Position numbers and translations under genes: made by a program. Below the pieces are notes generated by a model. The model searched no databases. It worked only from the letters and a program-made list of their open reading frames with translations, and had not been told where the DNA came from. 64,000 bases of DNA. Source: Synergistes jonesii. Its GTDB lineage: Bacteria > Synergistota > Synergistia > Synergistales > Synergistaceae. The DNA lies in the NCBI RefSeq assembly GCF_000712295.1, contig NZ_JMKI01000002.1, forward strand, positions 15 through 64,014, given 5' to 3'. Every line of letters starts with the position of its first letter. Within the stretch, counting starts at the first letter, position 1. Of the stretch, positions 47,755 through 64,000 are shown piece by piece.

Positions 47755-48636
47755 ATGAAATTGAAAGGTATTATCACAGCGCTGGTCACACCCCTGCTGG
47801 ACGGAGAAGCAAAGCTAAACAAACCCGTCCTCCAGGAAATTACAGAATATGCTATATCAAATGGAGTTCACGGTGTGTGTGTTCTTGGAGGCACTGGAGA
47901 ATACTGTGCATTAACTGATGAAGTCAAGACGTCTGCAATTGAGACAGTTGTTGAAAAAGTTAATGGCAGAGTCCCCGTCGTCGTTGGAATTGTCGAGCCG
48001 GGAATCGGGCAGACTATTAAAATGGTAAGGAAAGCGAAAGAAATAGGAGCGGACGTTGCGATGGTAGTCAGCCCTTACTACGTAAGCGTCTCTCAAGAAG
48101 GGCTCATTGATTACTACAGCAAAATATCGGACACAGCGGATATTCCACTCGTCTTATATAACGTACCTTACCGCACGGGCACTAATATCGAACCACAGAC
48201 TGTATCGACAATAGCGGATCAATGCAACGTCATAGGCATTAAAGAATGTAGCCCTAACATGGCACAGGTCCAAAAACTGATATCACTGTGCGGCGACAAA
48301 ATATCGCTTCTTTCCGGTGAAGATCTCTTTGTCGTGCTGGAAATGACTTTTGGCATTGAGGGCGGGATACTTGCCAGTGCGTCAATAATCCCAGACAAAT
48401 GGGTAGAAATATATGATGCAATGAAAAAGGGAGATATAAAAGGAGCAATCGAACGTCACACTAAACTTCTTCCGTTCTTTAGCGCTATGTTCTCGGAATG
48501 CAATCCTGGCCCGCTGAAGGCATCCATGGAATTGAAGGGTTTCAATGTTGGGCCCGTTGTGTCCCCGCTGACACAAATCAAAGAAGAAAACCTTGCTAAG
48601 CTTAAGGCTGTAATGAAAGATATGAGAATGATATAG
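47755..48636 (+). CDS. DHDPS/N-acetylneuraminate lyase-family aldolase
   Basis: A 293-residue class I aldolase. The Schiff-base lysine is Lys163 in VIGIKECS, and Tyr135 in VLYNVPYRTG is the proton relay. The pyruvate-carboxylate loop reads GGTGEY (residues 45-50) instead of the GTTGE of DHDPS, so a biosynthetic DapA role is less likely. Such enzymes cleave or form 2-oxo-acid substrates releasing pyruvate (for example 4-hydroxy-2-oxoglutarate or 2-keto-3-deoxy sugar acids). The location between a hydroxyacid dehydrogenase and a symporter suggests catabolism. AGAGGAG precedes the ATG. Confidence 0.88.
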   Translation: MKLKGIITALVTPLLDGEAKLNKPVLQEITEYAISNGVHGVCVLGGTGEYCALTDEVKTSAIETVVEKVNGRVPVVVGIVEPGIGQTIKMVRKAKEIGADVAMVVSPYYVSVSQEGLIDYYSKISDTADIPLVLYNVPYRTGTNIEPQTVSTIADQCNVIGIKECSPNMAQVQKLISLCGDKISLLSGEDLFVVLEMTFGIEGGILASASIIPDKWVEIYDAMKKGDIKGAIERHTKLLPFFSAMFSECNPGPLKASMELKGFNVGPVVSPLTQIKEENLAKLKAVMKDMRMI

Positions 48637-48742
48637 AACTATATTCCTTTAGCCAAGATTTTAAATGGTATGTAGTTCTGAGTTTTTGTACTAATAAGTT
48701 ACGGGTTTTTAAGAAAAAACTGTTTTAAAGGAGGCGTTTTAT

Positions 48743-50170
48743 GTGAGTAAAGAACATATCTATCTCGTGGGGATACTTGCGTACATCAGCTTGTTGGTGA
48801 CCATCGGTTTCCTGGCTAGGAGACGTGTAAAAAGTGCTGCTGACTTTCAGCTTGGTGGTGGTAAAATTCCAACATTTGTTCTTGTTGGCACGTTGGTAGC
48901 TAGTTGGCTTGGCTCTGGCACTGTCGTTGGTTATGCATCAAGAGTTTATTATTTTGGTCTCGGCGGTGTATGGTATGCGTTGGCCTGTCTTTTCTCTGTT
49001 GCCTACTTCACAATCATAATTGGCAGAATTCGTTCAATACCAGCACGTACCACACCCGAAATGCTTGAGCTTCGCTATGGGAAAACCGCAAGGAAATGGG
49101 CGGTGCTCCCTGTTTTCCTCGGTCAGGCAACGATAGGCGCCTATCAGATTAAAGCTGTAGGCTACATATTTGAGATATGCTTTGGGATAAGCTCTGACCT
49201 CGCTACTGTGATAGGTACAGGGATTATTATCGGTTATACGTTCCTGGGTGGTTTCTTTGCTGTTGCATGGTCCGATGTCTGTCAGTCGTGCATTTTTATG
49301 GTTGGTATGATGCTGGCAATACCTTTTGCTATAAATAACGCAGGTGGCTGGAGCGGTATGATTGCGGCGTTGCCACAGGGATACCTATCAATATTCAATG
49401 TACCATTCATTACTGTGCTTGGCATTTTTGTACCGACCGCATTATTAGGTGGAACTTCTATGTTTATGTACCAGCGTGCGTGGGCAGCAGAGAGTGTGGA
49501 AGCTGCAAGAAAAGGTGCCGCGATAAATTTCTGCGGGGCCGCGTTCATTTACACGCTCGTGCTCATTCTTGCTCTATCGGCGGTAGTAACCTGCCCCGGC
49601 ATCAAAGGAGATACGGTCGTGTTTTCAGTAGCGACGCAGCTTCCTGTTATTATAGGACTGATGCTTGTTATCAGCTGCGCGGCAGTGTTCATTTCAACAG
49701 GAGACTCTTTGCTGCTTGCAGCATCAGCAGTATTCGTGCGCGAAATATACATGTCGAACAGAGAACCTGATGACAAACGAGAACTTCTGGCAACAAGAAT
49801 CACTGTCGTCGCCATAGGCGTAGCTGGCTTGTTGCTACTCCGCTTTTACCCAACCCTAATTTCCCTCATGATGCTGGCCTACTCTGTTGAAGGTGCTGGG
49901 CTACTTTGCCCGCTCATAGCTGGTATGTATTGGAAAGGTGGTACAGAAAAAGGTGCCGTCGCAAGCATTGTGACCGGTCTAACAATAATCATTTTGTGGG
50001 AAGCTTGCGCGCGCTCTGGAGTGCCGTTTGCTAAGGCATTTCATTCATCGCTTATCGCGGTACCGGCTGCGGCAGGCGCCTACTTTGCAGTCTCTATGGT
50101 GACTAACAACGATTCCGCCCGTGTTGAGAAATTCTTTGGCTATTTTGATGGGTTAAAAAAACACTCATAG
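48743..50170 (+). CDS. Sodium:solute symporter (SSS family)
   Basis: A 475-residue protein starting at GTG 48,743 with AAAGGAGGCG upstream. Thirteen predicted membrane helices; SSS features are ADFQLGGGKIPTFVLVGTLVASWLG-type helix 2 start, YFGLGGVWYALACLF, and GYTFLGGFFAVAWSDVCQ in helix 6 with the conserved Gly-Gly. It imports an organic solute with sodium. The position inside the catabolic block makes the HyuAB substrate the likely cargo (inference). Codon use is AT-leaning like its neighbours. Confidence 0.92.
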   Translation: MSKEHIYLVGILAYISLLVTIGFLARRRVKSAADFQLGGGKIPTFVLVGTLVASWLGSGTVVGYASRVYYFGLGGVWYALACLFSVAYFTIIIGRIRSIPARTTPEMLELRYGKTARKWAVLPVFLGQATIGAYQIKAVGYIFEICFGISSDLATVIGTGIIIGYTFLGGFFAVAWSDVCQSCIFMVGMMLAIPFAINNAGGWSGMIAALPQGYLSIFNVPFITVLGIFVPTALLGGTSMFMYQRAWAAESVEAARKGAAINFCGAAFIYTLVLILALSAVVTCPGIKGDTVVFSVATQLPVIIGLMLVISCAAVFISTGDSLLLAASAVFVREIYMSNREPDDKRELLATRITVVAIGVAGLLLLRFYPTLISLMMLAYSVEGAGLLCPLIAGMYWKGGTEKGAVASIVTGLTIIILWEACARSGVPFAKAFHSSLIAVPAAAGAYFAVSMVTNNDSARVEKFFGYFDGLKKHS

Positions 50171-50504
50171 TGAGCGACATAGGCATATAAATATTTTCCC
50201 CGCTTAAACCTAATTGAGTATTATTTGTCTACTTTGGGGAGAGCGCATGCGGGGCGTAATGGAATATATAACGTTATTCATTCCGCCCCGCATTATTGCA
50301 TACATAATGCAAATATCAATGCCGTTTACTATGGGATTAATTCTTAGGAACGACGCGCCTCTCTTCAATAGTACCGCTATATCCAGTAACACAAAATAGG
50401 AACATATCGAATGCCATTTTTGGCATTACTGGAAATCTCCTGTCAAAAATCGAATTGAAGAGTCTTATCCCAGATGTTGTATGTAATAAAAGAAAGGTGA
50501 AAAA
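50171..50504. other. Regulatory spacer between symporter and hyuA
   Basis: 334 bases with no supported gene; short frames here are by-products of the inverted repeats. It contains the large dyad at 50,247-50,293 and a small hairpin ATGCCA-TTTT-TGGCAT at 50,411-50,426. A separate promoter for hyuA is likely. Confidence 0.55.
50247..50293. repeat. Inverted repeat upstream of hyuA
   Basis: ATGCGGGGCG (50,247-50,256) and CGCCCCGCAT (50,284-50,293) are perfect complements with a 27-base AT-rich loop. No T run follows, so it is not a plain terminator. The GC-rich arms stand out from their AT-rich surroundings. Confidence 0.65.
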
Positions 50505-52568
50505 ATGTTAAAATATCGTCTTGGAATTGACATTGGCGGAACATTCACAGATCTTAACCTGATCGATAATGACGGCAAGGTCGTCGACACTTTTAAAGTG
50601 GCTACGACCCCCAAAGACCCTGTTCAGGGCATTCTCAACGGGCTCGACATCCTTTTCAAGAAAGGCATTGCTCCAGAAGATATCGACTACTTTGTACACG
50701 GAACAACAATAGGATTGAATACACTTCTGCAGAGGGTCGGCTCAGAACTTGCGCTGTTCGTAACCGACGGTTTCCGCGACCTGCTGAACCTCCAGCGCCT
50801 CAGGTTGCCTGTACCGTACGACTTCCGTTCACGCCTTACAGAATCCCTTATCCCCCGCGAAAGGGTATTCGAAGTTAAAGAAAGGCTTCTTTACGACGGA
50901 AGCGTCCATAAAAAACTTAACATGGACAGTCTTGATGCGGCTATTGATAAAGCGGTTAAATGCGGCGTTAAAGGTGTTGTTGTATGCTTCCTGTACAGCT
51001 ACAAGAACGACATGCACGAAGAAATGGCTTGCAAGCGGATTGCGGAGAGAGCACCCGAGCTCAACGTATGCGGTTCTTCGGCTCTGTGGCCACAGACGCG
51101 TGAATATGAGCGCTGCGTGGTTGCGACTGTCAACCTATACATCCAAGAGAAAGTTAAGAAGTATTTCCAGCAGCTTGAAAGCGGGCTCAGGAAAGCGGGA
51201 CTCAAAGCGCTGCCGTTCATCACACAGTCTAACGGCGGTATCATGGATATGGAACGCGCAGCCAATGAACCTATAAAGACACTTTTCTCCGGCCCGGCTT
51301 CCGGTATAATCGGAGCGGCGCATATAGCCAGATCAGCAGATAAAGCCAACCTTATCACGATAGATGTCGGCGGGACAAGCGCGGACATTTCCGTCATTGA
51401 AGACGGCAAGCCCATGTTCACTCAGAGCAGCGAAACCGGCGGTTTACCGATTCTTATTCCGACGATATCAATCGACGCTATCGGTGCCGGCGGCGGCTCC
51501 ATCGCATGGATAGACAGCGGCGGCCTTCTCAAGATCGGGCCTGTTTCCGTCGGATCTGACCCGGGCCCCGCGTGCTACGGTTGGGGCAATGAAACGAAAC
51601 CCGCTCTTTCCGACGCGTTCCTTCTCTGCGGATACCTGAACCCGAAACGCTTTGCAGGCGGACGCCTCCCACTGTATCCGGAGCTCTCCGAAAAAGTAAT
51701 AAAGGAACTTTCCAAGTACCTGAAACTCGACACGCTCAACACGGCAGACCGCATTGTCCAGGTCGCGGTTACAAAGATGTACTCTGAAATCAACAGCATC
51801 CTGGAACAGAAGGGTATCGACCCGCGCGACTTCAGCCTTCTTGCGTTCGGCGGAGCGGGCTCTGTCGTCGGCAACTTCCTGGCAGAAGAGCTGCATATAG
51901 GCAGCGTCCTTGTTCCTCCTACGCCCGGCACACTCTGCGCTCTCGGCGCTCTTAATGCCGACTTCCTCAACGACGTCGTATCGTCAGAGCACTCGCTGCT
52001 TAGAAGCATCCCGATGGATGAACTCCGTGCCAAATTCGCCGGCATGAACGCTAAAGCGGAAAAATGGATTAAGGAGCAGAATATCGATAAGTACATCGAA
52101 AAAACACAGTATCTGCTTTCCATGGACGTGAGATATCACGGACAGTCTTATGAGACAGAAATGATAATCGAACCTGCATGGCTTAAATGCGAGACGCACG
52201 CGGAGATCGAAAAAGCTTTCCATGATATGCACAAGCGTTATTACGGACACTGTGACACCAACGCAGAAGTTGAAGTAGTCAATCTCAAGGTCCGTGCTCT
52301 CGGTATTACACATAAACCGCCATACGCACTGGCAGAAGAAGCAAAAGAACCCGCGAAATCGGAAACAACACGCAGGGTCATACTCAAAGGCAAGGTTTAT
52401 ACAGCGGATATTTATTCACGTACAGACCTGAAGTTCGGGCACTGCATCTCAGGACCGGCCGTTGTCGAGCAGGACGACAGCACAACAATAATACTGGACG
52501 GCTGGGAAGGCAAGATCAACCGCTGCGGCAACCTGATCATCACCCGCAAAGAAAGCATCAAAGGATAG
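50505..52568 (+). CDS. hyuA: Hydantoinase/oxoprolinase subunit A (HyuA family)
   Basis: A 687-residue ASKHA-fold ATPase subunit. The phosphate 1 loop is IDIGGTFTDLNLID at the N-terminus, VHGTTIGLNTLLQR is the family signature, and phosphate 2/adenosine regions follow (LITIDVGGTSADISVI, DAIGAGGGSIAWID, SDPGPACYGWG). With HyuB it forms an ATP-dependent enzyme that opens lactam or hydantoin rings or carboxylates ketones, depending on the member. Length fits HyuA of N-methylhydantoinases. AAAGGTGA precedes the ATG. It is followed after 17 bases by hyuB. Confidence 0.9.
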   Translation: MLKYRLGIDIGGTFTDLNLIDNDGKVVDTFKVATTPKDPVQGILNGLDILFKKGIAPEDIDYFVHGTTIGLNTLLQRVGSELALFVTDGFRDLLNLQRLRLPVPYDFRSRLTESLIPRERVFEVKERLLYDGSVHKKLNMDSLDAAIDKAVKCGVKGVVVCFLYSYKNDMHEEMACKRIAERAPELNVCGSSALWPQTREYERCVVATVNLYIQEKVKKYFQQLESGLRKAGLKALPFITQSNGGIMDMERAANEPIKTLFSGPASGIIGAAHIARSADKANLITIDVGGTSADISVIEDGKPMFTQSSETGGLPILIPTISIDAIGAGGGSIAWIDSGGLLKIGPVSVGSDPGPACYGWGNETKPALSDAFLLCGYLNPKRFAGGRLPLYPELSEKVIKELSKYLKLDTLNTADRIVQVAVTKMYSEINSILEQKGIDPRDFSLLAFGGAGSVVGNFLAEELHIGSVLVPPTPGTLCALGALNADFLNDVVSSEHSLLRSIPMDELRAKFAGMNAKAEKWIKEQNIDKYIEKTQYLLSMDVRYHGQSYETEMIIEPAWLKCETHAEIEKAFHDMHKRYYGHCDTNAEVEVVNLKVRALGITHKPPYALAEEAKEPAKSETTRRVILKGKVYTADIYSRTDLKFGHCISGPAVVEQDDSTTIILDGWEGKINRCGNLIITRKESIKG

Positions 52569-52585
52569 CATAAGAGGAGGCGAAA

Positions 52586-54556
52586 ATGATGCGTACTGAC
52601 CCTGTATCACTTGAAATAATGCGGAATTACTATCTCTCTATTGCAAACGGCATGGCCGCCGTAATAGAACGTACATCTTACACATCATTCATTAAGGAAA
52701 CGGCTGACTTTGGAGCCGCACTTATCGCGCCGACCGGAGAGTTCTTCATATATCCGCGTAATGTTGGAGTAACAATCTTTGTCGGGCTGAACCTTCTGAG
52801 AGCAGTGGAAGAATGCGGCACGCTGGAACCCGGAGATATCATCATTTTCAACGACCCCTATACATCAAACGGTTTCGCCTCGCACCTTCCCGACATCCAG
52901 GTATTCAAACCCGTATTCTATAAGGGGAAAATCGTTAACTATTCATGGGCGTTTGTCCACTGTAGCGATATCGGCGGCCTTGCTCCCGGAAGTATCTCCC
53001 CGCTCGCCAATGACATCCACCAGGAAGGGCTGAGAATGCCTCCTGTAAAGCTCTTCAAACGAGGAGAACCAAATAAAGAAGTCGAGACGCTTATTTACGC
53101 AAACTGCCGCATACCGACGCTGAACCACGGTGACGTGAATGCGATGGTTGCAGCCGTCAACACAGGAGAAAAGAGAATGCTTGAAATGATAGAGAAATAC
53201 GGTATAGACGCGGTGGACGCCTCTATGCTTGACCTTCTCGATCAGGGCGAGCTCAGAGCCAGACAGGTTATATCAAAACTGCCAGACGGTGATTACAAAT
53301 TCGCCGACTACCTCGATGACGACATGGCATCCGATGTTCCTATCAGACTTGCTCTTACGCTGAAAGTTAAGGGCGATGAGTTCATCATCGACTTCTCAGA
53401 ATGCGACCCTCAGGTCTGCACGGCTTTCAACGTACCCTCGTGCGGCACAAAACATTCATACCTCTATCAGGGGCTGATCAACTACATCTTTAGCGAAGAC
53501 CCATATATCCCCATCAATGGAGGCATTGCGAGACCTATATCCGTAATATCGCCTAAGGGATGCATCACAAATCCGGAATATCCAGCAGCTGTAGGCACTA
53601 GGCATCCTGTCAGCGCAAGACTTTACAGCGCTGTTCTCGGAGCGCTCTCACAGATCGTTCCCGACAGAGTCCCTGCGGCGGGAGCCGGTCAGGCTGCAAT
53701 GATAGTTCTTTCGACGCCGGAAGATGCCCCGAGAGTCGGGAGAAAGATTACAGTTGTCCAGCCTATGAACGGAGGCAGCGGCGCCCTCGGAGACAAAGAC
53801 GGCGCGGACGGACAGGATCACGTTGCCGGCTTCCTCAAGAATACACCTATCGAGATACTCGAGCAGGAAGTTGACACCATCGTTGACAGATATGAACTTA
53901 TTCCTGACACGGCCGGTCCCGGAGAGCACAGAGGCGGATATGCGATTCGCCTTGACTTTGAAATAGTCAAAAACAATTCAATTGTTACGGCCCGCGGTCT
54001 TGAAAGAATGAGATTTGAACCTTGGGGACTCGCCGGCGGGAAAGCAGGATCGCTCTGTGAAGTTAAACTCAATCCTGATACAAAGGGTGAAGAAGCACTT
54101 CCGAAGATCAGCGTTCTCAACCCCGTTCGCGGAGATGTTATCAGCATCCGCACTCCTGGCGGCGGTGGTTGGGGTGATCCGTTCCTCCGTCCGACAGAGC
54201 TTGTCCTGAACGAAGTCAGAGGAGAGCTTCTCAGCCCCGAGAAAGCAAAGGAAGCCTATGGCGTAATCGTTAAGAAACAGGATGGTTTCTATGTAGTGGA
54301 TGAAGAAGCTACAAAGAAATATCGTGAAGAGAACAAGACGACCGAAATAGAACAGTGGAATTTCGGCAAAGCCCGCAGGGAATATGAGTCACGCTGGACT
54401 GCCGAAGCAAGCGCCAAGCTTGCTGTGAAACTCCAGGAACTTCCCCCCTTTGAAAGGTCGCTGCGTAAACACCAGATGCACAAAGTTCTGGATAAGAGAT
54501 GCGGCAGCGGTCCGGTAACGGTCGAAGCCATTGAAAAGGCTTGGGGCGAATTCTAA
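52586..54556 (+). CDS. hyuB: Hydantoinase subunit B (HyuB family), extended form
   Basis: A 656-residue partner of HyuA, with GGAGGCG 4 bases before the ATG. Family signatures: ERTSYTSFIKE, NDPYTSNGFASHLPDI, VHCSDIGGLAPGSISP, GGIARPISVISPKG, and GPGEHRGGYAIR. The last ~110 residues, after GGGGWGDPFLR, are an extra charged segment; many HyuB proteins end near residue 570. The longer form approaches acetone-carboxylase-type subunits, but the third (gamma) acetone-carboxylase subunit is not present, so an ATP-dependent amidohydrolase is the better guess. Substrate unknown. Confidence 0.88.
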   Translation: MMRTDPVSLEIMRNYYLSIANGMAAVIERTSYTSFIKETADFGAALIAPTGEFFIYPRNVGVTIFVGLNLLRAVEECGTLEPGDIIIFNDPYTSNGFASHLPDIQVFKPVFYKGKIVNYSWAFVHCSDIGGLAPGSISPLANDIHQEGLRMPPVKLFKRGEPNKEVETLIYANCRIPTLNHGDVNAMVAAVNTGEKRMLEMIEKYGIDAVDASMLDLLDQGELRARQVISKLPDGDYKFADYLDDDMASDVPIRLALTLKVKGDEFIIDFSECDPQVCTAFNVPSCGTKHSYLYQGLINYIFSEDPYIPINGGIARPISVISPKGCITNPEYPAAVGTRHPVSARLYSAVLGALSQIVPDRVPAAGAGQAAMIVLSTPEDAPRVGRKITVVQPMNGGSGALGDKDGADGQDHVAGFLKNTPIEILEQEVDTIVDRYELIPDTAGPGEHRGGYAIRLDFEIVKNNSIVTARGLERMRFEPWGLAGGKAGSLCEVKLNPDTKGEEALPKISVLNPVRGDVISIRTPGGGGWGDPFLRPTELVLNEVRGELLSPEKAKEAYGVIVKKQDGFYVVDEEATKKYREENKTTEIEQWNFGKARREYESRWTAEASAKLAVKLQELPPFERSLRKHQMHKVLDKRCGSGPVTVEAIEKAWGEF

Positions 54557-55080: not shown

Positions 55081-56319
55081 TCATCCTTTCATCTCCGCGA
55101 GGTAGGGCATCAGATACATCCTTTCTCCTTCCTCGTGAAAGCTGAAGCCGATATTGTCGCCGGAGCTCGTCGTAAATTCCGCGTCGCCGCGCTCCCTGAC
55201 GACAAAGCCGCTTCGCGCGAGCTCTCCCTCGAAATAGGAAAGGTTGAAATTATTCGCCGAGCAGCTTGGATATTCGCTCAAAAGCCTCTTCATCGACACA
55301 GCCCCCGCGTCGAAATAAAAATACGTCCCGAGAGCTGCCGCGCCCGGCGCAAAATACTTTTTCAGATCCGCGAGCAGAAACGCTTCGCTGTAAAAGTTAT
55401 GCTCGTTGACGGCGAAGAAGTCGATATTCAAATTCACGCAGCCGGGCTTAAGCGGCAGATTCACGCTGCTGTCCGCGATGTAAAGGATGTCGCGCCCGAA
55501 AGCCTGCCGTTCGATCAGCTTCTTATACATTAATAGAGTCTCGGGGTACTTGTCGACGACGATATACTTTCCGCGCGGGTCCAGATACTCCTGATGATTG
55601 TGCATAAAGAACCACGCGTTCGCGTGCGTCTCGATCGCGGTGCGCCCGCGCATATCGATTCGCGCGAGGCGCTCCGTCATCCAGTTGTATGAGCTCTGGA
55701 AGAGGGAGATCAGATGCGGCGGAAGATTTTTATACATCTCCCTCTCAGTGTCCGGCTTGTCGTAAAGGTCCCTGTTTTTGTTCGGAGTCAGCAGGACGCC
55801 GTCTTTTATATCGGCGCGATAGCCGCACGCGCATTTAAAAGAGCCGCTGAAAACGGAACGGCTGTCCATGTCGGCCCCTGAGATCCGCAGCGCACCGCCG
55901 CAGAGGGGACAGCAGAGCAGATCGAGCATAGAAAGCGGGACGCCGGAGCCCGCGTTCGGCGAAGCGGCCCTTCTGCGAAGCTCCGCTATGCGCGCATCCA
56001 GACGCGCGGCTACGCCGGACAACCTATCGCACTCTCTCAGACAGTGATTTTTCTTCTCCTCGCAGATAGAGCAGAGCTCCTTCAGGTCTTCTCCACTTGC
56101 GAAGTAAGAGACCCTGCGGAGCGAAAGTACCCTGTGTATCTCATGCAGAGAAAATTCCATTTCGCGCAGCTCGAGAATCATCTCAATGTCGCGCCGAGTC
56201 CGCTCGTCGAATACCCGCTGAGAACCTCTCCGCTGCGGCACAAGCAGCCCTAACGAGACATAATAATTCACGGTATCGACAGAGAGCCCGTATTCCTTCG
56301 CTACTTCGCCTATTTTCAT
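55081..56319 (-). CDS. MerR-type regulator fused to zinc ribbon and degenerate methyltransferase fold
   Basis: About 412 residues from ATG 56,319 (MKIGEVAKEYGLS). Residues 1-70 are a MerR winged helix (DTVNYYVSLGLLVPQRRGSQRVFD), and ~75-115 a helical linker. Residues ~135-180 hold a zinc ribbon (CCPLCGGALRI, FKCACGYRADIKDGVLL) like that of the rRNA methyltransferase RlmA. Residues ~185-412 follow the class I methyltransferase plan, but the glycine-rich SAM loop is replaced by TAIETHANAWFF; YIVVDKYPE and DILYIADSSVNLPL match the later strands. It is probably a regulator that senses a ligand through a former enzyme domain. A dyad operator lies in its own promoter, divergent from hisD. Confidence 0.75.
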   Translation of the reverse strand: MKIGEVAKEYGLSVDTVNYYVSLGLLVPQRRGSQRVFDERTRRDIEMILELREMEFSLHEIHRVLSLRRVSYFASGEDLKELCSICEEKKNHCLRECDRLSGVAARLDARIAELRRRAASPNAGSGVPLSMLDLLCCPLCGGALRISGADMDSRSVFSGSFKCACGYRADIKDGVLLTPNKNRDLYDKPDTEREMYKNLPPHLISLFQSSYNWMTERLARIDMRGRTAIETHANAWFFMHNHQEYLDPRGKYIVVDKYPETLLMYKKLIERQAFGRDILYIADSSVNLPLKPGCVNLNIDFFAVNEHNFYSEAFLLADLKKYFAPGAAALGTYFYFDAGAVSMKRLLSEYPSCSANNFNLSYFEGELARSGFVVRERGDAEFTTSSGDNIGFSFHEEGERMYLMPYLAEMKG

Positions 56320-56338
56320 TTTCGTCACCGCCTGAGCT

Positions 56339-56371
56339 ATTCTATCAAAAAACATTGAGCGCACTCAATGT
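56339..56371 (-). promoter_or_regulatory. Promoter and dyad operator of the MerR-fusion gene
   Basis: On the minus strand TTGAGT (56,363-56,368) and TAGAAT (56,339-56,344) are separated by 18 bases. The perfect dyad ACATTGAG-CGCA-CTCAATGT (56,352-56,371) overlaps the -35 box and the spacer, as expected for a MerR-family autoregulatory site. Confidence 0.72.
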
Positions 56372-56467
56372 TTTTCCGGAAAAATAAATTTCCGCGCGGT
56401 TGACATCGAGAATACTCGCAGCGTTAAACTTCGCGCAAGTATATAATTATCGCAAGGGGGAATCGCA

Positions 56468-57736
56468 ATGAAAGTAATAAAGGCGTCAAAAGAACGGCCT
56501 CTTTCAGCCGCAAAGGATCTGCGCGCCGCCGTGGGCGCGATAATCGACGACGTGCGCGAAAACGGAGACGAGGCGCTGCTGAGATATAACGAAAAATTTG
56601 ATTCGTGCAGGCGGAGCGCGCTGAGAATCTCAAAGGAAGAGATCGCCGAAGCCTACGCGCAGCTTTCAAATGAAGAAATCGACGACATAAGAGAGGCGGC
56701 CGAAAACATCAGAGGCTTTGCGGCCGCGCAGAGGGCGACGCTCAAAGAGCTGCCGGCCTATTCTCCTAAGCCGGGCATAACTCTCGGGCACAGAATCATC
56801 CCGGTGCATTCCTGCTGCTGCTACGTTCCCGGAGGAAACTACCCGCTCTACTCCACCGCGCTGATGCTCGCGATCCCCGCAAAGGCGGCTGGGGTCCCAC
56901 GCGTCGCGGCCTGCTCTCCGACTATGAAGGGCACCGACAAAATTTCTCCGAAGACGCTCGCCGCGATGGACATCGCCGGCGCAGACGAAATATACGCCGT
57001 CGGCGGCGCTCAGGCGATCGCCGCCTTCTGCTACGGCACCGAACAGATCAGCCCCGTCGATATGATCGTCGGCCCCGGCAACAGCTACGTGGCGGAGGCC
57101 AAGCGCCAGTGTTATGGGCAGGTCGGCATCGACTTCGCCGCTGGGCCAAGCGAGCTCCTGATCATCGCCGACGGAACGGCGGACGCCGAGATCGCGGCGG
57201 CGGACATATTGGCGCAGAGCGAGCACGACCGCGTCGCACGCGGAATAGTGATCACGACGAGCGAAAAGTTCGCGGAAGAGGTGGTCGCGGAGGTCGAAAG
57301 ACAGCTCGACGAGCTGCCCACGGCGGAAATCGCGCGCTCGTCGTGGAACGATTACGGAGAGGTGTTGTTAGCCGATTCCCTTGACGAAGCGATCCGCGCG
57401 GCGAACGACGCCGCGCCGGAACACCTTGAGATACAGACCGCCGACGGCGAAAAAGTCGCCGAAAAACTTTACAACTACGGTTCCCTCTTCATCGGCGGCA
57501 ACACCGCCGAGGTGTTCGGCGACTACGCGTCCGGCACGAACCACACGCTGCCGACGATGCGCGCCGCAAGGTACACGGGCGGCGTATGGGTCGGCACATT
57601 TTTAAAGACCTGCACGCATCAGAGCTTCACGGCGGAAGCGATGAGGGAGCTGGCGCCGCTTGTGACGCGCCTCGCGCGCGGAGAGGGGCTCGAGGGGCAC
57701 GCAAGGGCGTCGGAAAAAAGATTCAATAAGAAGTAA
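56468..57736 (+). CDS. hisD: Histidinol dehydrogenase family protein
   Basis: A 422-residue NAD-dependent HisD-fold enzyme. The signature CYVPGGNYPLYSTALMLAIPAK and the GPSELLIIAD segment are present, and the zinc ligands correspond to Gln and His of AQSEHD, Asp of FGDYASGTNH and His of LEGHARASEKR. Histidinol dehydrogenase makes histidine in two oxidations. No other his gene is near, and a group of HisD homologues acts on other alcohols (for example sulfopropanediol), so a non-histidine role is possible. GCAAGGGGG lies before the ATG; a TATAAT at 56,442-56,447 may be the -10 box. It is divergent from the MerR-fusion gene. Confidence 0.82.
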   Translation: MKVIKASKERPLSAAKDLRAAVGAIIDDVRENGDEALLRYNEKFDSCRRSALRISKEEIAEAYAQLSNEEIDDIREAAENIRGFAAAQRATLKELPAYSPKPGITLGHRIIPVHSCCCYVPGGNYPLYSTALMLAIPAKAAGVPRVAACSPTMKGTDKISPKTLAAMDIAGADEIYAVGGAQAIAAFCYGTEQISPVDMIVGPGNSYVAEAKRQCYGQVGIDFAAGPSELLIIADGTADAEIAAADILAQSEHDRVARGIVITTSEKFAEEVVAEVERQLDELPTAEIARSSWNDYGEVLLADSLDEAIRAANDAAPEHLEIQTADGEKVAEKLYNYGSLFIGGNTAEVFGDYASGTNHTLPTMRAARYTGGVWVGTFLKTCTHQSFTAEAMRELAPLVTRLARGEGLEGHARASEKRFNKK

Positions 57737-57862: not shown

Positions 57863-57940
57863 TGGTCGGGGCGAGAAGATTTGAACTTCCGACCTCATGG
57901 TCCCGAACCAAGCGCGCTAACCAGACTGCGCTACGCCCCG
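57863..57940 (-). tRNA. tRNA-Pro (CGG)
   Basis: Acceptor CGGGGCG pairs with CGCCCCG; the anticodon loop TTCGGGA gives CGG; CCA is encoded. The anticodon stem CTTGG/CCATG has a T-T mismatch at 28:42, unlike the usual CCAAG. Confidence 0.92.
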
Positions 57941-57988
57941 TAAAAGCTTTGATATAAAAGCCTCTTACAACTGAGAGGCTGGATCCGC

Positions 57989-58065
57989 TGGTGGCGCTAA
58001 CTGGACTCGAACCAGTGACCTGTCGGGTATGAACCGAATGCTCTAGCCAACTGAGCTACAGCGCC
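57989..58065 (-). tRNA. tRNA-Met (CAU), elongator
   Basis: Acceptor GGCGCTG pairs with TAGCGCC; loop TTCATAC gives CAU; the core matches bacterial elongator tRNA-Met rather than tRNA-Ile2. The anticodon stem TTCGG/CCGAC has a T-C mismatch at 27:43. Confidence 0.92.
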
Positions 58066-58070
58066 ATAAT

Positions 58071-58147
58071 TGGTTGCGGGGATAGGATTTGAACCTATGA
58101 CCTTCGGGTTATGAGCCCGACGAGCTTCCGTACTGCTCCACCCCGCG
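58071..58147 (-). tRNA. tRNA-fMet (CAU), initiator
   Basis: The initiator features are present: unpaired position 1 (C against A72) and three G-C pairs in the anticodon stem (TCGGG/CCCGA). CCA is encoded. Confidence 0.95.
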
Positions 58148-58155
58148 ATGCCAGC

Positions 58156-58242
58156 TGGTGCCGAGAGCGGGATTTGAACCCGCACGAACTTTACGTTCGC
58201 AGGATTTTAAGTCCCGTGCGTCTACCTTTCCGCCACCCCGGC
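58156..58242 (-). tRNA. tRNA-Leu (UAA)
   Basis: Long variable arm (GCGAACGTAAAGTTCGT), anticodon loop CTTAAAA giving UAA, acceptor GCCGGGG/TCTCGGC, encoded CCA. First gene of the operon. Confidence 0.96.
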
Positions 58243-58647: not shown

Positions 58648-60426
58648 ATGGGCTGCAAAGATTGCGGAGCCTGCTCCGCCGGAGAGACACCTATAAGAGA
58701 GGACGGACGCATGCGCATCCTGCTGATGGGAAACCCCAATGTCGGCAAGAGCGTATTTTTTTCGCGCTTAACGGGCGTCCATGCGCTTTCGTCGAACTAT
58801 CCTGGTACGACGGTCGGTTTCACGCAGGGCGTGATCAGACATAAAGGTCTCTGCGCCGACCTCATCGACGTGCCCGGGGCCTACACGCTCGACCCGACGA
58901 ACGAGGCCGAGGAGATAGCGCGCCGCATAATAAACGAAGGCGCGGACCGCGTCATCCTCGTCATCGACGCGACGGCGCTCGAACGTAACCTCGTTATGGC
59001 GCTGCAAGTGCTGGCTTATCACATTCCGACTATCATAGCCCTCAACATGACGGACGAGGCGCGGCACAAGGGGATACTGCTTGACGTCGAAAGGCTCGAA
59101 AAGGAGCTGGGCGTGCCCATCTACAAGACCGTCGCGACGACGGGCAGCGGAATCAGCGATATCGTGGACAATATGGACAAGGCTCGCGTAAGCGGCATTA
59201 CAGCGATGACGAAGGAAGAGCGCTGGCAGAAGATAGGGCACATCATCGCGGAGGTGCAGACTGTGACGCATCGCCATCACACGCTGCTCGACCGCGCGGA
59301 GGACATATCTGCGCACCCTCTCTTCGGCGGGCTCGCCGGCATCGTCATCCTGACGCTCAGCTTCACTCTGATACGCTTCCTCGGCGAAGGACTTGTCGAT
59401 CATATATTCGATCCGATTTTTGAAAACCTCTGGCTTCCGCTGCTGAATAAATTGTCCGCGTTCCTCGGAGAGGGTTATCTGCGCTCGCTGCTGATAGGCC
59501 GGCTCTTCGACGGGGCGATAGACCTCGAACAGAGCATGGGAGTGCTTTCTACGGGCTTTTACGTGGAATTCGGAATGGTGCTGCCTTATATAATCGCCTT
59601 CTACGCGGCGCTCTCATTCCTCGAGGATCTGGGCTACCTGCCGCGCCTCGCTGTCGTATTCGACGCGCTGCTGCACCGCTTCGGCATCCACGGCTACGCT
59701 ATAATCCCCACGCTGCTCGGCTTCGGCTGCAACGTTCCGGGTATACTCGCGACGCGCGTGCTCGAATCGAAGCGCGAGCGCTTCATCGCGGCGACGCTTA
59801 TCTCGGTAGGCGTTCCCTGCGTGTCTATACAGGCCATGCTGGCGTCGACGCTCGGCCCTTTCGGCGTGAAGTACATCGCTTCGGTCTACGTCGTCCTGCT
59901 GATAGTATGGCTGATACTCGGACGGCTGATGAACCTGACTCTTTCCGGCTTCAGTCCAGAACTGATAGTCGAGATACCGCCTTACCGCATTCCTTCGCTC
60001 AAGGCCTGGATGGCGAAGCTGTGGTTCCGCATCAAGGACTTTTTCCTCGAGGCGACCCCTCTCGTGCTGGGCGGCATTTTTCTCGTAAACATACTCGACA
60101 TGGCGGGGATTTTGGAGCGCATCGGCCGCGCGCTGACGCCCTTCTTCCACAAGGTCCTGGGGTTGCCGCCGTCGACGGCAGTGCCGGTCGTCATGGGGAT
60201 GTTCCGCAAGGACATAGCTATGGGACTGCTGATCCCGCTGAACCTTACCGCCCACCAGATGCTCGTCGCCGTAATAGTGCTCTCTATGACTTTCCCCTGC
60301 ATCGCGACCTTCGTCGTGATGTGGAAGGAGCTCGGCGCGCTGCGTATGCTCGAGGCGAGCGCGCTGATGATATGCTCCGCGGTTGCGGCCGGCGCGCTTC
60401 TCAATCTCTTACTTGCCGCGCTTTAA
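58648..60426 (+). CDS. feoB: Ferrous iron transporter B
   Basis: A 592-residue FeoB. The GTPase part has G1 GNPNVGKS (28-35), G2 in YPGTT, G3 DVPGAYTL and G4 NMTDEA. The membrane part has gate motifs with conserved cysteines (GFGCNVPGILATR and VGVPCVSIQA). Ahead of the GTPase lies a short extension with Cys3, Cys6 and Cys9 (CKDCGAC), which could bind a metal or a small iron-sulfur cluster. It is shorter than E. coli FeoB and has no FeoC-like tail. It imports Fe2+ across the cytoplasmic membrane in anoxic conditions. Confidence 0.95.
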   Translation: MGCKDCGACSAGETPIREDGRMRILLMGNPNVGKSVFFSRLTGVHALSSNYPGTTVGFTQGVIRHKGLCADLIDVPGAYTLDPTNEAEEIARRIINEGADRVILVIDATALERNLVMALQVLAYHIPTIIALNMTDEARHKGILLDVERLEKELGVPIYKTVATTGSGISDIVDNMDKARVSGITAMTKEERWQKIGHIIAEVQTVTHRHHTLLDRAEDISAHPLFGGLAGIVILTLSFTLIRFLGEGLVDHIFDPIFENLWLPLLNKLSAFLGEGYLRSLLIGRLFDGAIDLEQSMGVLSTGFYVEFGMVLPYIIAFYAALSFLEDLGYLPRLAVVFDALLHRFGIHGYAIIPTLLGFGCNVPGILATRVLESKRERFIAATLISVGVPCVSIQAMLASTLGPFGVKYIASVYVVLLIVWLILGRLMNLTLSGFSPELIVEIPPYRIPSLKAWMAKLWFRIKDFFLEATPLVLGGIFLVNILDMAGILERIGRALTPFFHKVLGLPPSTAVPVVMGMFRKDIAMGLLIPLNLTAHQMLVAVIVLSMTFPCIATFVVMWKELGALRMLEASALMICSAVAAGALLNLLLAAL

Positions 60427-62079: not shown

Positions 62080-63675
62080 TCAGTCGAATGAGAGGTTTTT
62101 TACGAAGGTACGCTGAAAATCCCTGTGCGTCGCAAGCTCGATATGCCTTGCGTCCTTTGCCACGGCTAGGGCTTCTTTCCACAGCTCGGGACGGATTATG
62201 AACTCTATCGCGCCGAGTCCAGAGCTGTTGCCCACAGACGTTATCTTTTCACGTGCGATGCGCGGCAGTATGCCTATACGCATCGCGTTCTCGACCGTTA
62301 TATAATTTCCGAAGGAGCCGGCCACGTAAAAGCGGGCGACATCGCCGACGCTTTTGCCGGCTTCTTCGAGCATCAGCTCGACGCCCGTCGCTATCGCGCT
62401 CTTTGCGAGCTGCACCTTGCGGATATCCTTCTGCGTGATATAGACCCCGCCTCTTTTGCCGCGCGACAGCAGGAAGCGTTTCTTATCCGCTTCGAGCCTC
62501 GTGGAAAAATCCGTCCCCTCTGGCAGAGATTTAGCGAACTTCCCGCTTGCGTTGATCACCTTTTCGTCGAGCAGGACGCCTACCGCGTCGACTAAGCCGG
62601 AGCCACAGACTCCGACCGCCGGCGTCCCGTCGACAGTGGAGACGGCCAGCCTGCCGTTTTCGCTTTTGACATGGTCGACGGCGCCGCCGGCCGCGCACAT
62701 CCCCTGGGAAATCATTGCGCCTTCGAGCGCCGGCCCGGCGGCAGCCGAGCAGCAGAGAAGAAAATCGCGGCAGCCGAGCACCATTTCGTTGTTCGTCCCG
62801 ATGTCTACCAGCAGAGAAAGCTCCTTCCTCTTCGCCATTCCCGTATAGACTATGCCGGCCGTTACGTCGCCGCCGACGAAGCCGGAGATGTTCGGCATGA
62901 GGGCCACGGGCGTGCGAGGCAGGAGCGCGAGATTCATATGCGACGCCGTGAGTATCGGGAAGGTTTTGAACATCGGCTCAAACGGCGCCCTTCCGATGCT
63001 CTTCGGCGACACGCCGGCGAAAAGGTGCTCCATAGTGGCGTTAGCCGATATTACGACCTCGCTTATCTCCTCTTCGGAGACCGACGCACTCCTCTGTAAA
63101 TTAAAAATGAGCCTGTTTATCGCACCGACGACCTTGGCCTTAAGGATGGAAAGCCCCTCCTCGCTTTCCGACGCGAAGCTTATGCGCGAAATCACGTCGG
63201 CCCCGTAAGCCGACTGCGGATTGGCGGAGGAGGAGACGGCCGTCGTAGCCGCGGCGCTTTTGTTTACCAGATAGGCGACGAGGGTCGTGGTCCCAATGTC
63301 GACGGCGACGGCGTATTCGGCCCTTCCGGCGCAGCGAGCCTGAGGGTGCGCGAAGCCGGCGGGCGTTTTCGCGCCGCACGGATCGGCGTCTACCCTTTCG
63401 ACGGTCATTCCGCGCTCGGCTCTCGTCACGCACGCAAGCCTTATTCCCGCCCTTATTTCTTCGTCGCTGAGAAGCAGACGCTCGCCGTCCGTGCATTCGG
63501 GGACGACCCTTGTGACCTTCACCCTGCACTTGCCGCAGGTTCCCCTGCCTCCGCACGGCTGATCAAGGGGCGCTCCGCAGCGGGCCATGAGCTCGCCCAG
63601 CGTTTCACCCTCGCGCGGCTCCGCGTCGGTGCTGGTGATTATGCGAACGTATTTCTTCTCGTTCTCCTCCAACAT
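62080..63675 (-). CDS. RamA-like corrinoid activation protein (2Fe-2S plus ASKHA)
   Basis: About 531 residues from ATG 63,675 (GGGAGGGGGAG upstream). The N-terminal ferredoxin domain has the [2Fe-2S] ligands Cys41, Cys47, Cys50 and Cys82 (CGGRGTCGKC and the later ACVTR). From about residue 115 it is an ASKHA-type DUF4445 domain: YAVAVDIGTTTLVAYLV, SLLVDIGTNNEMVLG, and VCGSGLVDAVG. Such proteins use ATP to reduce inactive Co(II) corrinoid to Co(I) in methyltransferase systems. It lies in an operon with the activation-domain-like protein; the matching methyltransferase is presumably beyond the right edge. Confidence 0.9.
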   Translation of the reverse strand: MLEENEKKYVRIITSTDAEPREGETLGELMARCGAPLDQPCGGRGTCGKCRVKVTRVVPECTDGERLLLSDEEIRAGIRLACVTRAERGMTVERVDADPCGAKTPAGFAHPQARCAGRAEYAVAVDIGTTTLVAYLVNKSAAATTAVSSSANPQSAYGADVISRISFASESEEGLSILKAKVVGAINRLIFNLQRSASVSEEEISEVVISANATMEHLFAGVSPKSIGRAPFEPMFKTFPILTASHMNLALLPRTPVALMPNISGFVGGDVTAGIVYTGMAKRKELSLLVDIGTNNEMVLGCRDFLLCCSAAAGPALEGAMISQGMCAAGGAVDHVKSENGRLAVSTVDGTPAVGVCGSGLVDAVGVLLDEKVINASGKFAKSLPEGTDFSTRLEADKKRFLLSRGKRGGVYITQKDIRKVQLAKSAIATGVELMLEEAGKSVGDVARFYVAGSFGNYITVENAMRIGILPRIAREKITSVGNSSGLGAIEFIIRPELWKEALAVAKDARHIELATHRDFQRTFVKNLSFD

Positions 63676-63712
63676 GCTACTCCCCCTCCCGGCCGTCAAC
63701 ACAAGGGACGTC

Positions 63713-64000
63713 TCAGCCGTTATCGGAAACGTCAAAGAAGATGTGTGTTGAAAGATGAATTTTCCGTATCCCTCCGGCTATCGTCGCCTCGGTGTCCTCA
63801 CGTTTATACGTTACCGTGGGATTTTTGGCGCCGGCGTCCATAGCGCGCGATTTGATCCACGGTACTATTGTATTTATAGTATCATTTACGGCGTTATCTA
63901 TAAACTCATAATCTTTTATTCCAAAAGGAAGATGGGCGCGGTAGCCGCCCTCGGCTGCAAGGGGCGTGATGAGCACCGCGTAGCGCAGGAAGAAGGTGCC
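63713..64000 (-). CDS. C-terminal fragment of an unidentified gene (cut by the window)
   Basis: A minus-strand frame is open from the right edge to a stop at 63,713, giving 95 codons without its start; the GTG at 63,976 is in frame but no ribosome-binding site makes it a true start. The visible part (TPLAAEGGYRAHLPFGIKDY, TINTIVPWIKSRAMDAG, TYKREDTEATIAGG) is soluble and mixed alpha/beta. I do not recognise the family. Its stop lies 38 bases before the RamA-like start, so it probably belongs to the same operon. Confidence 0.6.
   Translation of the reverse strand, partial: GTFFLRYAVLITPLAAEGGYRAHLPFGIKDYEFIDNAVNDTINTIVPWIKSRAMDAGAKNPTVTYKREDTEATIAGGIRKIHLSTHIFFDVSDNG

Follow-up and report, generated by a model that had tools for sequence, protein, structure and literature searches.

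The window, which is the whole 64,000-nucleotide stretch of Synergistes jonesii DNA that was analysed, contains a gene for a 412-residue regulator and, divergent from it, a gene for a hisD-like dehydrogenase. The features of these genes and of the region between them are listed in Table 1. The regulator frame starts with an ATG at 56319 and ends with the stop codon at 55081-55083. A longer GTG start at 56364 (427 aa) is unlikely, because the homologues share the Met start and the GTG would fall within the dyad upstream of the gene. In addition, the window holds a catabolic cluster at 47755-54556, encoding a dihydrodipicolinate-synthase family protein, a sodium:solute symporter and hydantoinase A and B. 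Four tRNA genes (Pro, Met, Met, Leu; 57863-58242, minus strand) lie just after the hisD-like gene, and genes for a FeoB-type iron transporter (58648-60426) and for a RACo-type corrinoid activator beside a 237-residue gene (62080-63735) are also found.

Table 1. Positions of the regulator, its putative operators and the divergent promoter in the window.
Feature	Position	Strand	Basis or remark
Regulator gene, 412 aa	55081..56319	-	MerR winged helix, zinc ribbon and degenerate class I methyltransferase-like domain
Methyltransferase-like domain, residues 193-412	55084..55743	-	Profile-profile match to intact-loop relatives
Replaced SAM loop ETHANAWFF, residues 230-238	55606..55632	-	Alignment to ELGTGSGFF of intact relatives
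Trm112-like zinc ribbon, residues 130-178	55786..55932	-	Profile matches; C137, C140, C163 and C165 invariant
Long helix after the MerR domain, residues 76-118	about 55966-56094	-	Confident part of AlphaFold model
MerR DNA-binding domain, residues 1-70	56110..56319	-	Pfam PF13411, E=1.2e-12, above cut-off
Regulator -10, TAGAAT, 18-bp spacer	56339..56344	-	
Upstream operator (putative), perfect dyad ACATTGAG-N4-CTCAATGT	56352..56371	.	Genome scan and recurrence upstream of relatives
Regulator -35, TTGAGT, within the dyad	56363..56368	-	
-35 of hisD-like promoter, TTGACA	56400..56405	+	38.5 bp from dyad centre
Second, degenerate operator (putative), ACATCGAG-N4-CTCGCAGC, in long spacer	56403..56422	.	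Top-scoring offset of a leave-one-out PWM in all 13 promoters
-10 of hisD-like promoter, TAAACT, 19-bp spacer	56425..56430	+	
hisD-like dehydrogenase gene, putative target	56468..57736	+	PF00815, E=1.1e-153; divergent from regulator

The earlier note on this DNA had claimed a MerR winged helix, a zinc ribbon and a methyltransferase-like region in one protein, and the three parts are borne out by the Pfam match, by Trm112-type matches and by relatives, respectively. The zinc ribbon matches Trm112p in Pfam at a sub-threshold E=0.0043 and Trm112_arch in NCBIfam at E=9e-7, below the cut-off of that model, and also matches PDB 6zxw. The methyltransferase region was undetected in family searches from the window protein alone and was established via relatives. 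AlphaFold models of the whole regulator and of residues 126-412 (four sequences) were of low confidence past the MerR part, with C-terminal pLDDT mostly 25-50 and pTM of 0.34 and 0.47, and Foldseek with the low-confidence C-terminal model found no match at E<=0.001.

A contig scan revealed three relatives of the regulator with 51-64% identity. Whole-genome searches detected family members in 12 genomes out of 188 from the same phylum and in 74 out of 394 from the order to which a clostridial relative belongs, and 82 loci among the matches were read and aligned; a plasmid search gave remote relatives only. In many distant relatives that share the domain order the SAM loop is intact, ELGTGSGFFLR. 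Pfam Methyltransf_25 was matched by 25 of 25 such proteins (best E=2.5e-10), and their profile matches 16S rRNA methylases in PDB. With the MerR domain and zinc ribbon removed, the methyltransferase part of the window clade matches that of the intact clade at E=1.5e-25 (hhalign). In this alignment ETHANAWFF falls on ELGTGSGFF of the MerR-methyltransferase homologues, in agreement with the previously proposed replacement of the SAM loop, and the three glycines are exchanged for H232, N234 and W236. E230, F238 and D256 are retained in the window protein, wherein the invariant D256 supplies the acidic residue that closes strand 2 in class I methyltransferases. Judged from these alignments, the window protein can be regarded as homologous to class I SAM-dependent methyltransferases through a Rossmann-like domain.

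RlmA, the 23S rRNA m1G745 methyltransferase, likewise has a class I methyltransferase domain preceded by a zinc ribbon, but it lacks a MerR domain and its SAM loop is intact. The likeness to RlmA claimed for the window protein holds for the intact-loop relatives, which align with the E. coli enzyme over ribbon and methyltransferase (hhalign probability 92%), but not for the window clade, for which hhalign gave no match to E. coli RlmA. Uncharacterised clostridial MerR-methyltransferase proteins near MefA-like MFS transporters share the full-length domain order and a common ancestor with the window protein; they differ from it in the intact ELGxGxGFF and in having an efflux neighbour rather than hisD or a permease. 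Across the family, the type of neighbour goes with the type of loop. A MefA-like MFS transporter adjoins 25 of the 32 intact-loop loci (L084-L132) and none of the other members in the fetched stretches. The window clade adjoins hisD-like genes and an APC amino-acid permease, and regulator, hisD-like gene and permease are linked in many genomes. A remote homologue in Vescimonas fastidiosa adjoins a sodium:solute symporter and an ornithine cyclodeaminase.

The glycine-rich SAM loop (E/DxGxGxG) is absent throughout the loop-less branch, and across the window clade all three glycines are replaced, one of them by an invariant Trp. In a 75-row tree whose root is not fixed, a 99% branch splits 29 intact-loop from 44 loop-less members. 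Ordinary methyltransferases possess a glycine-rich SAM loop, so the simplest reading of this tree is that the loop was lost once in the family. Homologues with an intact loop and rRNA methyltransferase activity had been named as evidence against a dead enzyme. The intact-loop homologues do exist, but they are fused to MerR and adjoin efflux pumps, and nothing points to rRNA methylation by them; they show a loss of the loop, which does not make the window protein an enzyme. With the glycine loop gone, methyl transfer by the window protein has very probably ceased. However, methyltransferases with unusual SAM loops exist, and the loss is therefore no proof against SAM binding. An altered pocket of the domain might still accommodate SAM, SAH or another nucleoside, so that the regulator would report methylation status rather than a substrate of the module; E230, D256 and the A282-D283 region, which usually contact the amine, ribose and adenine of SAM, are indeed conserved, and the intact relatives have the full loop. 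We regard this as quite unlikely, because the conserved Trp and other residues take the place of the loop glycines across the window clade, and a connection with methylation is not evident for the putative targets, which are a dehydrogenase and an amino-acid permease. It is highly improbable that the protein is a bifunctional transcription factor and enzyme that methylates with an unusual SAM loop: active HTH-methyltransferase fusions such as ArsRM are known (PMC10190100) and intact-loop homologues exist, but conserved bulky residues have replaced the loop clade-wide and no gene for a methylation substrate lies nearby.

The promoter of the regulator gene with an 18-base spacer and the perfect N4 dyad, both described in the earlier note, were found as TTGAGT-N18-TAGAAT and ACATTGAG-CGCA-CTCAATGT. 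The perfect dyad match is the single one in the whole genome, and 0.15 dyads at up to 3 mismatches are expected per window. Conservation upstream of orthologues had been suggested as a test of the dyad, and the outcome was not against it: relatives in Synergistales and Clostridia have ACMTTGAG-N4-CTCAAKGT or a similar sequence upstream. TTGAGT forms bases 4-9 of the dyad, and 10 of 11 loci have a -10 after it. The spacer between the two is 18 bp in the window but 17 bp in nearly all relatives. Since the dyad contains the -35 of the regulator, it suits autorepression.

The same dyad stands in a fixed relation to the divergent promoter. In all 13 promoters examined, of hisD-like or permease genes, its centre lies 37.5, 38.5 or 39.5 bp upstream of the target -35, and in all 13, from two phyla, TTGAC is combined with a 19-bp spacer, against a total of 0.01 promoters of such geometry expected from shuffled sequences; the 13 promoters are partly related by descent and the counts overstate independence, but they span two phyla and two different genes. 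When a weight matrix built from the upstream dyads was moved across the target promoters in leave-one-out fashion, the best score fell on a single register in 13 of 13, a 20-mer from the fourth base of the -35. Without the columns overlapping the -35, this spacer copy has a mean score of -2.2 versus -26.7 (sd 2.4) for shuffled spacers (0/5000); in the window its left half is clearer and its right half weak. Classical MerR operators occupy the same position, inside the -35/-10 spacer (review PMC9909328). The centres of the two sites are 50-52 bp apart, which places them on one face of the helix at a distance of about five turns. A search of the GrdX-linked and SSS-linked clades did not find the two-site geometry, and G570 (L140) keeps the 19-bp promoter with no clear dyad.

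A search for the dyad elsewhere in the genome, which had been recommended earlier, yielded one further near-perfect copy, on contig C26, with two symmetric changes. It sits in front of an APC amino-acid permease gene, 38.5 bp upstream of the -35, and orthologues of this permease (58-80% identity) adjoin the regulator in relatives. At this permease no regulator gene faces the site and the regulator-type -35 and -10 are gone, while the dyad is perfect in its symmetry and the distance unchanged, suggesting that the role of the upstream dyad extends beyond autoregulation to the target promoter. The view of the dyad as the regulator's own operator thus stands in part: it recurs in relatives and holds the regulator -35, but it is also the upstream half of the two-site arrangement of the target. 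Occurrence of the same site pair before the permease on another contig points to a two-promoter regulon. In whole-genome scans at zero mismatches, the composite site was found at the hisD-like and the permease promoter in the own genome, at one each in G145, G188, G189, G012 and G045, and nowhere else; the pattern with N25 matches only the 37.5-bp promoters of G012 and G045, and that with N26 the rest. One-mismatch matches are few, and one in G071, inside a coding frame, was taken as chance.

The divergent gene had been called hisD-like, and its product matches PF00815 (E=1.1e-153). Like HisD and HpsN, with which it shares the fold family, it has the zinc ligands Gln, His, Asp and His and the catalytic Glu-His pair, but it differs in its motif GNYPL, where E. 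coli HisD has GSAPL and the sulfopropanediol dehydrogenase HpsN has GRY[A/S]H (PMC11382572), and in forming a separate clade. As in HisD, Leu occupies the axial position (motif from PMC11382572). Twelve regulator-linked copies form one clade (98/96) apart from E. coli HisD, with long branches. A his cluster (hisZ-G-B-A-IE-H-F plus hisC) lies on contig C27 (8000-20000; L134) without hisD, and the genome has only two hisD-like genes, both outside this cluster and one of them that of the window. After the other, at C26:57224-58441 (L035 9255-10466), come genes for a further APC permease and an IclR-like regulator, and this set is a parallel module under a different regulator. Because the his cluster has no hisD, a biosynthetic role was kept in consideration, in which the enzyme would be the histidinol dehydrogenase, the permease would import histidine, and histidine or histidinol would be the effector. 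The intact active-site residues and the axial Leu fit such a histidine regulon, which we nevertheless consider unlikely: G188 has a second HisD that clusters with the E. coli enzyme, and the linked copy falls in another clade (on long branches); in L004, L006 and L140 the genes linked with hisD include those for an Amidohydro_3 enzyme and a GPH transporter, which suits catabolism.

Taken as a whole, the protein is probably a MerR-type ligand-responsive regulator that acts through two operators as activator of the hisD-like/permease module and as autorepressor, and in which a repurposed methyltransferase domain would receive the effector. A dimer on the strong upstream dyad would repress the regulator's own gene, and a dimer would also bind the weaker copy within the 19-bp spacer of the divergent promoter; given the spacing of about five turns on one face, the two dimers probably cooperate. 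The zinc ribbon and the class I methyltransferase domain without its glycine loop would form the effector-binding part. Upon binding of the effector, the long spacer would be distorted in the classical MerR way and the hisD-like dehydrogenase switched on. The regulon would then serve uptake, by the permease, and oxidation, by the hisD-like enzyme, of one compound. The effector is most likely this compound or its product, and probably an amino acid or amino-alcohol.

Several elements of this proposal have precedents. CarH/LitR proteins consist of a MerR domain and a B12-binding domain; they resemble the window protein in joining a MerR DNA-binding domain to an enzyme-derived sensor domain, but theirs is a cobalamin-binding domain rather than a methyltransferase fold, and the operators differ. 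The activators MerR, CueR, BmrR and EcmrR (PMC9909328) share the winged helix, the dyad in a 19-bp spacer, the divergent target and the expected activation by DNA distortion. In contrast, the effector part here is a zinc ribbon plus methyltransferase-like domain, and a second, stronger dyad holding the regulator's -35 lies five turns upstream. ArsRM, an HTH regulator joined to an arsenite methyltransferase (PMC10190100), is also a transcription factor-methyltransferase fusion, but with ArsR instead of MerR and with an active methyltransferase where the window protein has lost the SAM loop. The MerR mechanism and HTH-methyltransferase fusions are thus already known. No MerR-methyltransferase fusion, with or without the loop, no two-site arrangement and no GrdX-linked MerR was found in the open-access literature searched, and the review of MerR regulators (PMC9909328) makes no mention of methyltransferases. 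The locus offers a complete, testable set of regulator, operators and regulon for a MerR family with an ex-enzyme effector domain. The hisD-like/permease module is widespread among amino-acid-fermenting anaerobes, and the locus also gives a route to its substrate. Moreover, since the family has both intact-loop and loop-less members, an enzyme domain becoming a sensor can be studied directly.

More tentatively, these proteins may make up a large, undescribed MerR family that arose by fusion to a zinc-ribbon methyltransferase, first for drug efflux with an intact loop. One loop loss would have been followed by radiation into metabolite sensors of amino-acid or amine catabolism, with hisD-like/permease, SSS symporter and GrdX neighbours. 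The window clade would have evolved the two-operator arrangement of five helical turns, where a single dyad is used for autorepression as well as for cooperative activation of the target.

Two further groups were noticed. One (L086-L108, 13 loci) has a third loop type, GPFxFNFLL, and in most of these loci the regulator faces a divergent GrdX-family gene; some carry dyads of their own, e.g. AGGTGAACNNNGGTTCACCT in L094. GrdX is a glycine-reductase-associated family, and a role of the GPF-loop proteins in regulating glycine/sarcosine/betaine reductase metabolism is possible. The other is a sister clade (L009 and L010) beside a PutP-like symporter, with a different dyad, TTTCTATAGT-NN-ACTATAGAAA, at the regulator start, which has the core AGTNNACT in common with the window dyad.
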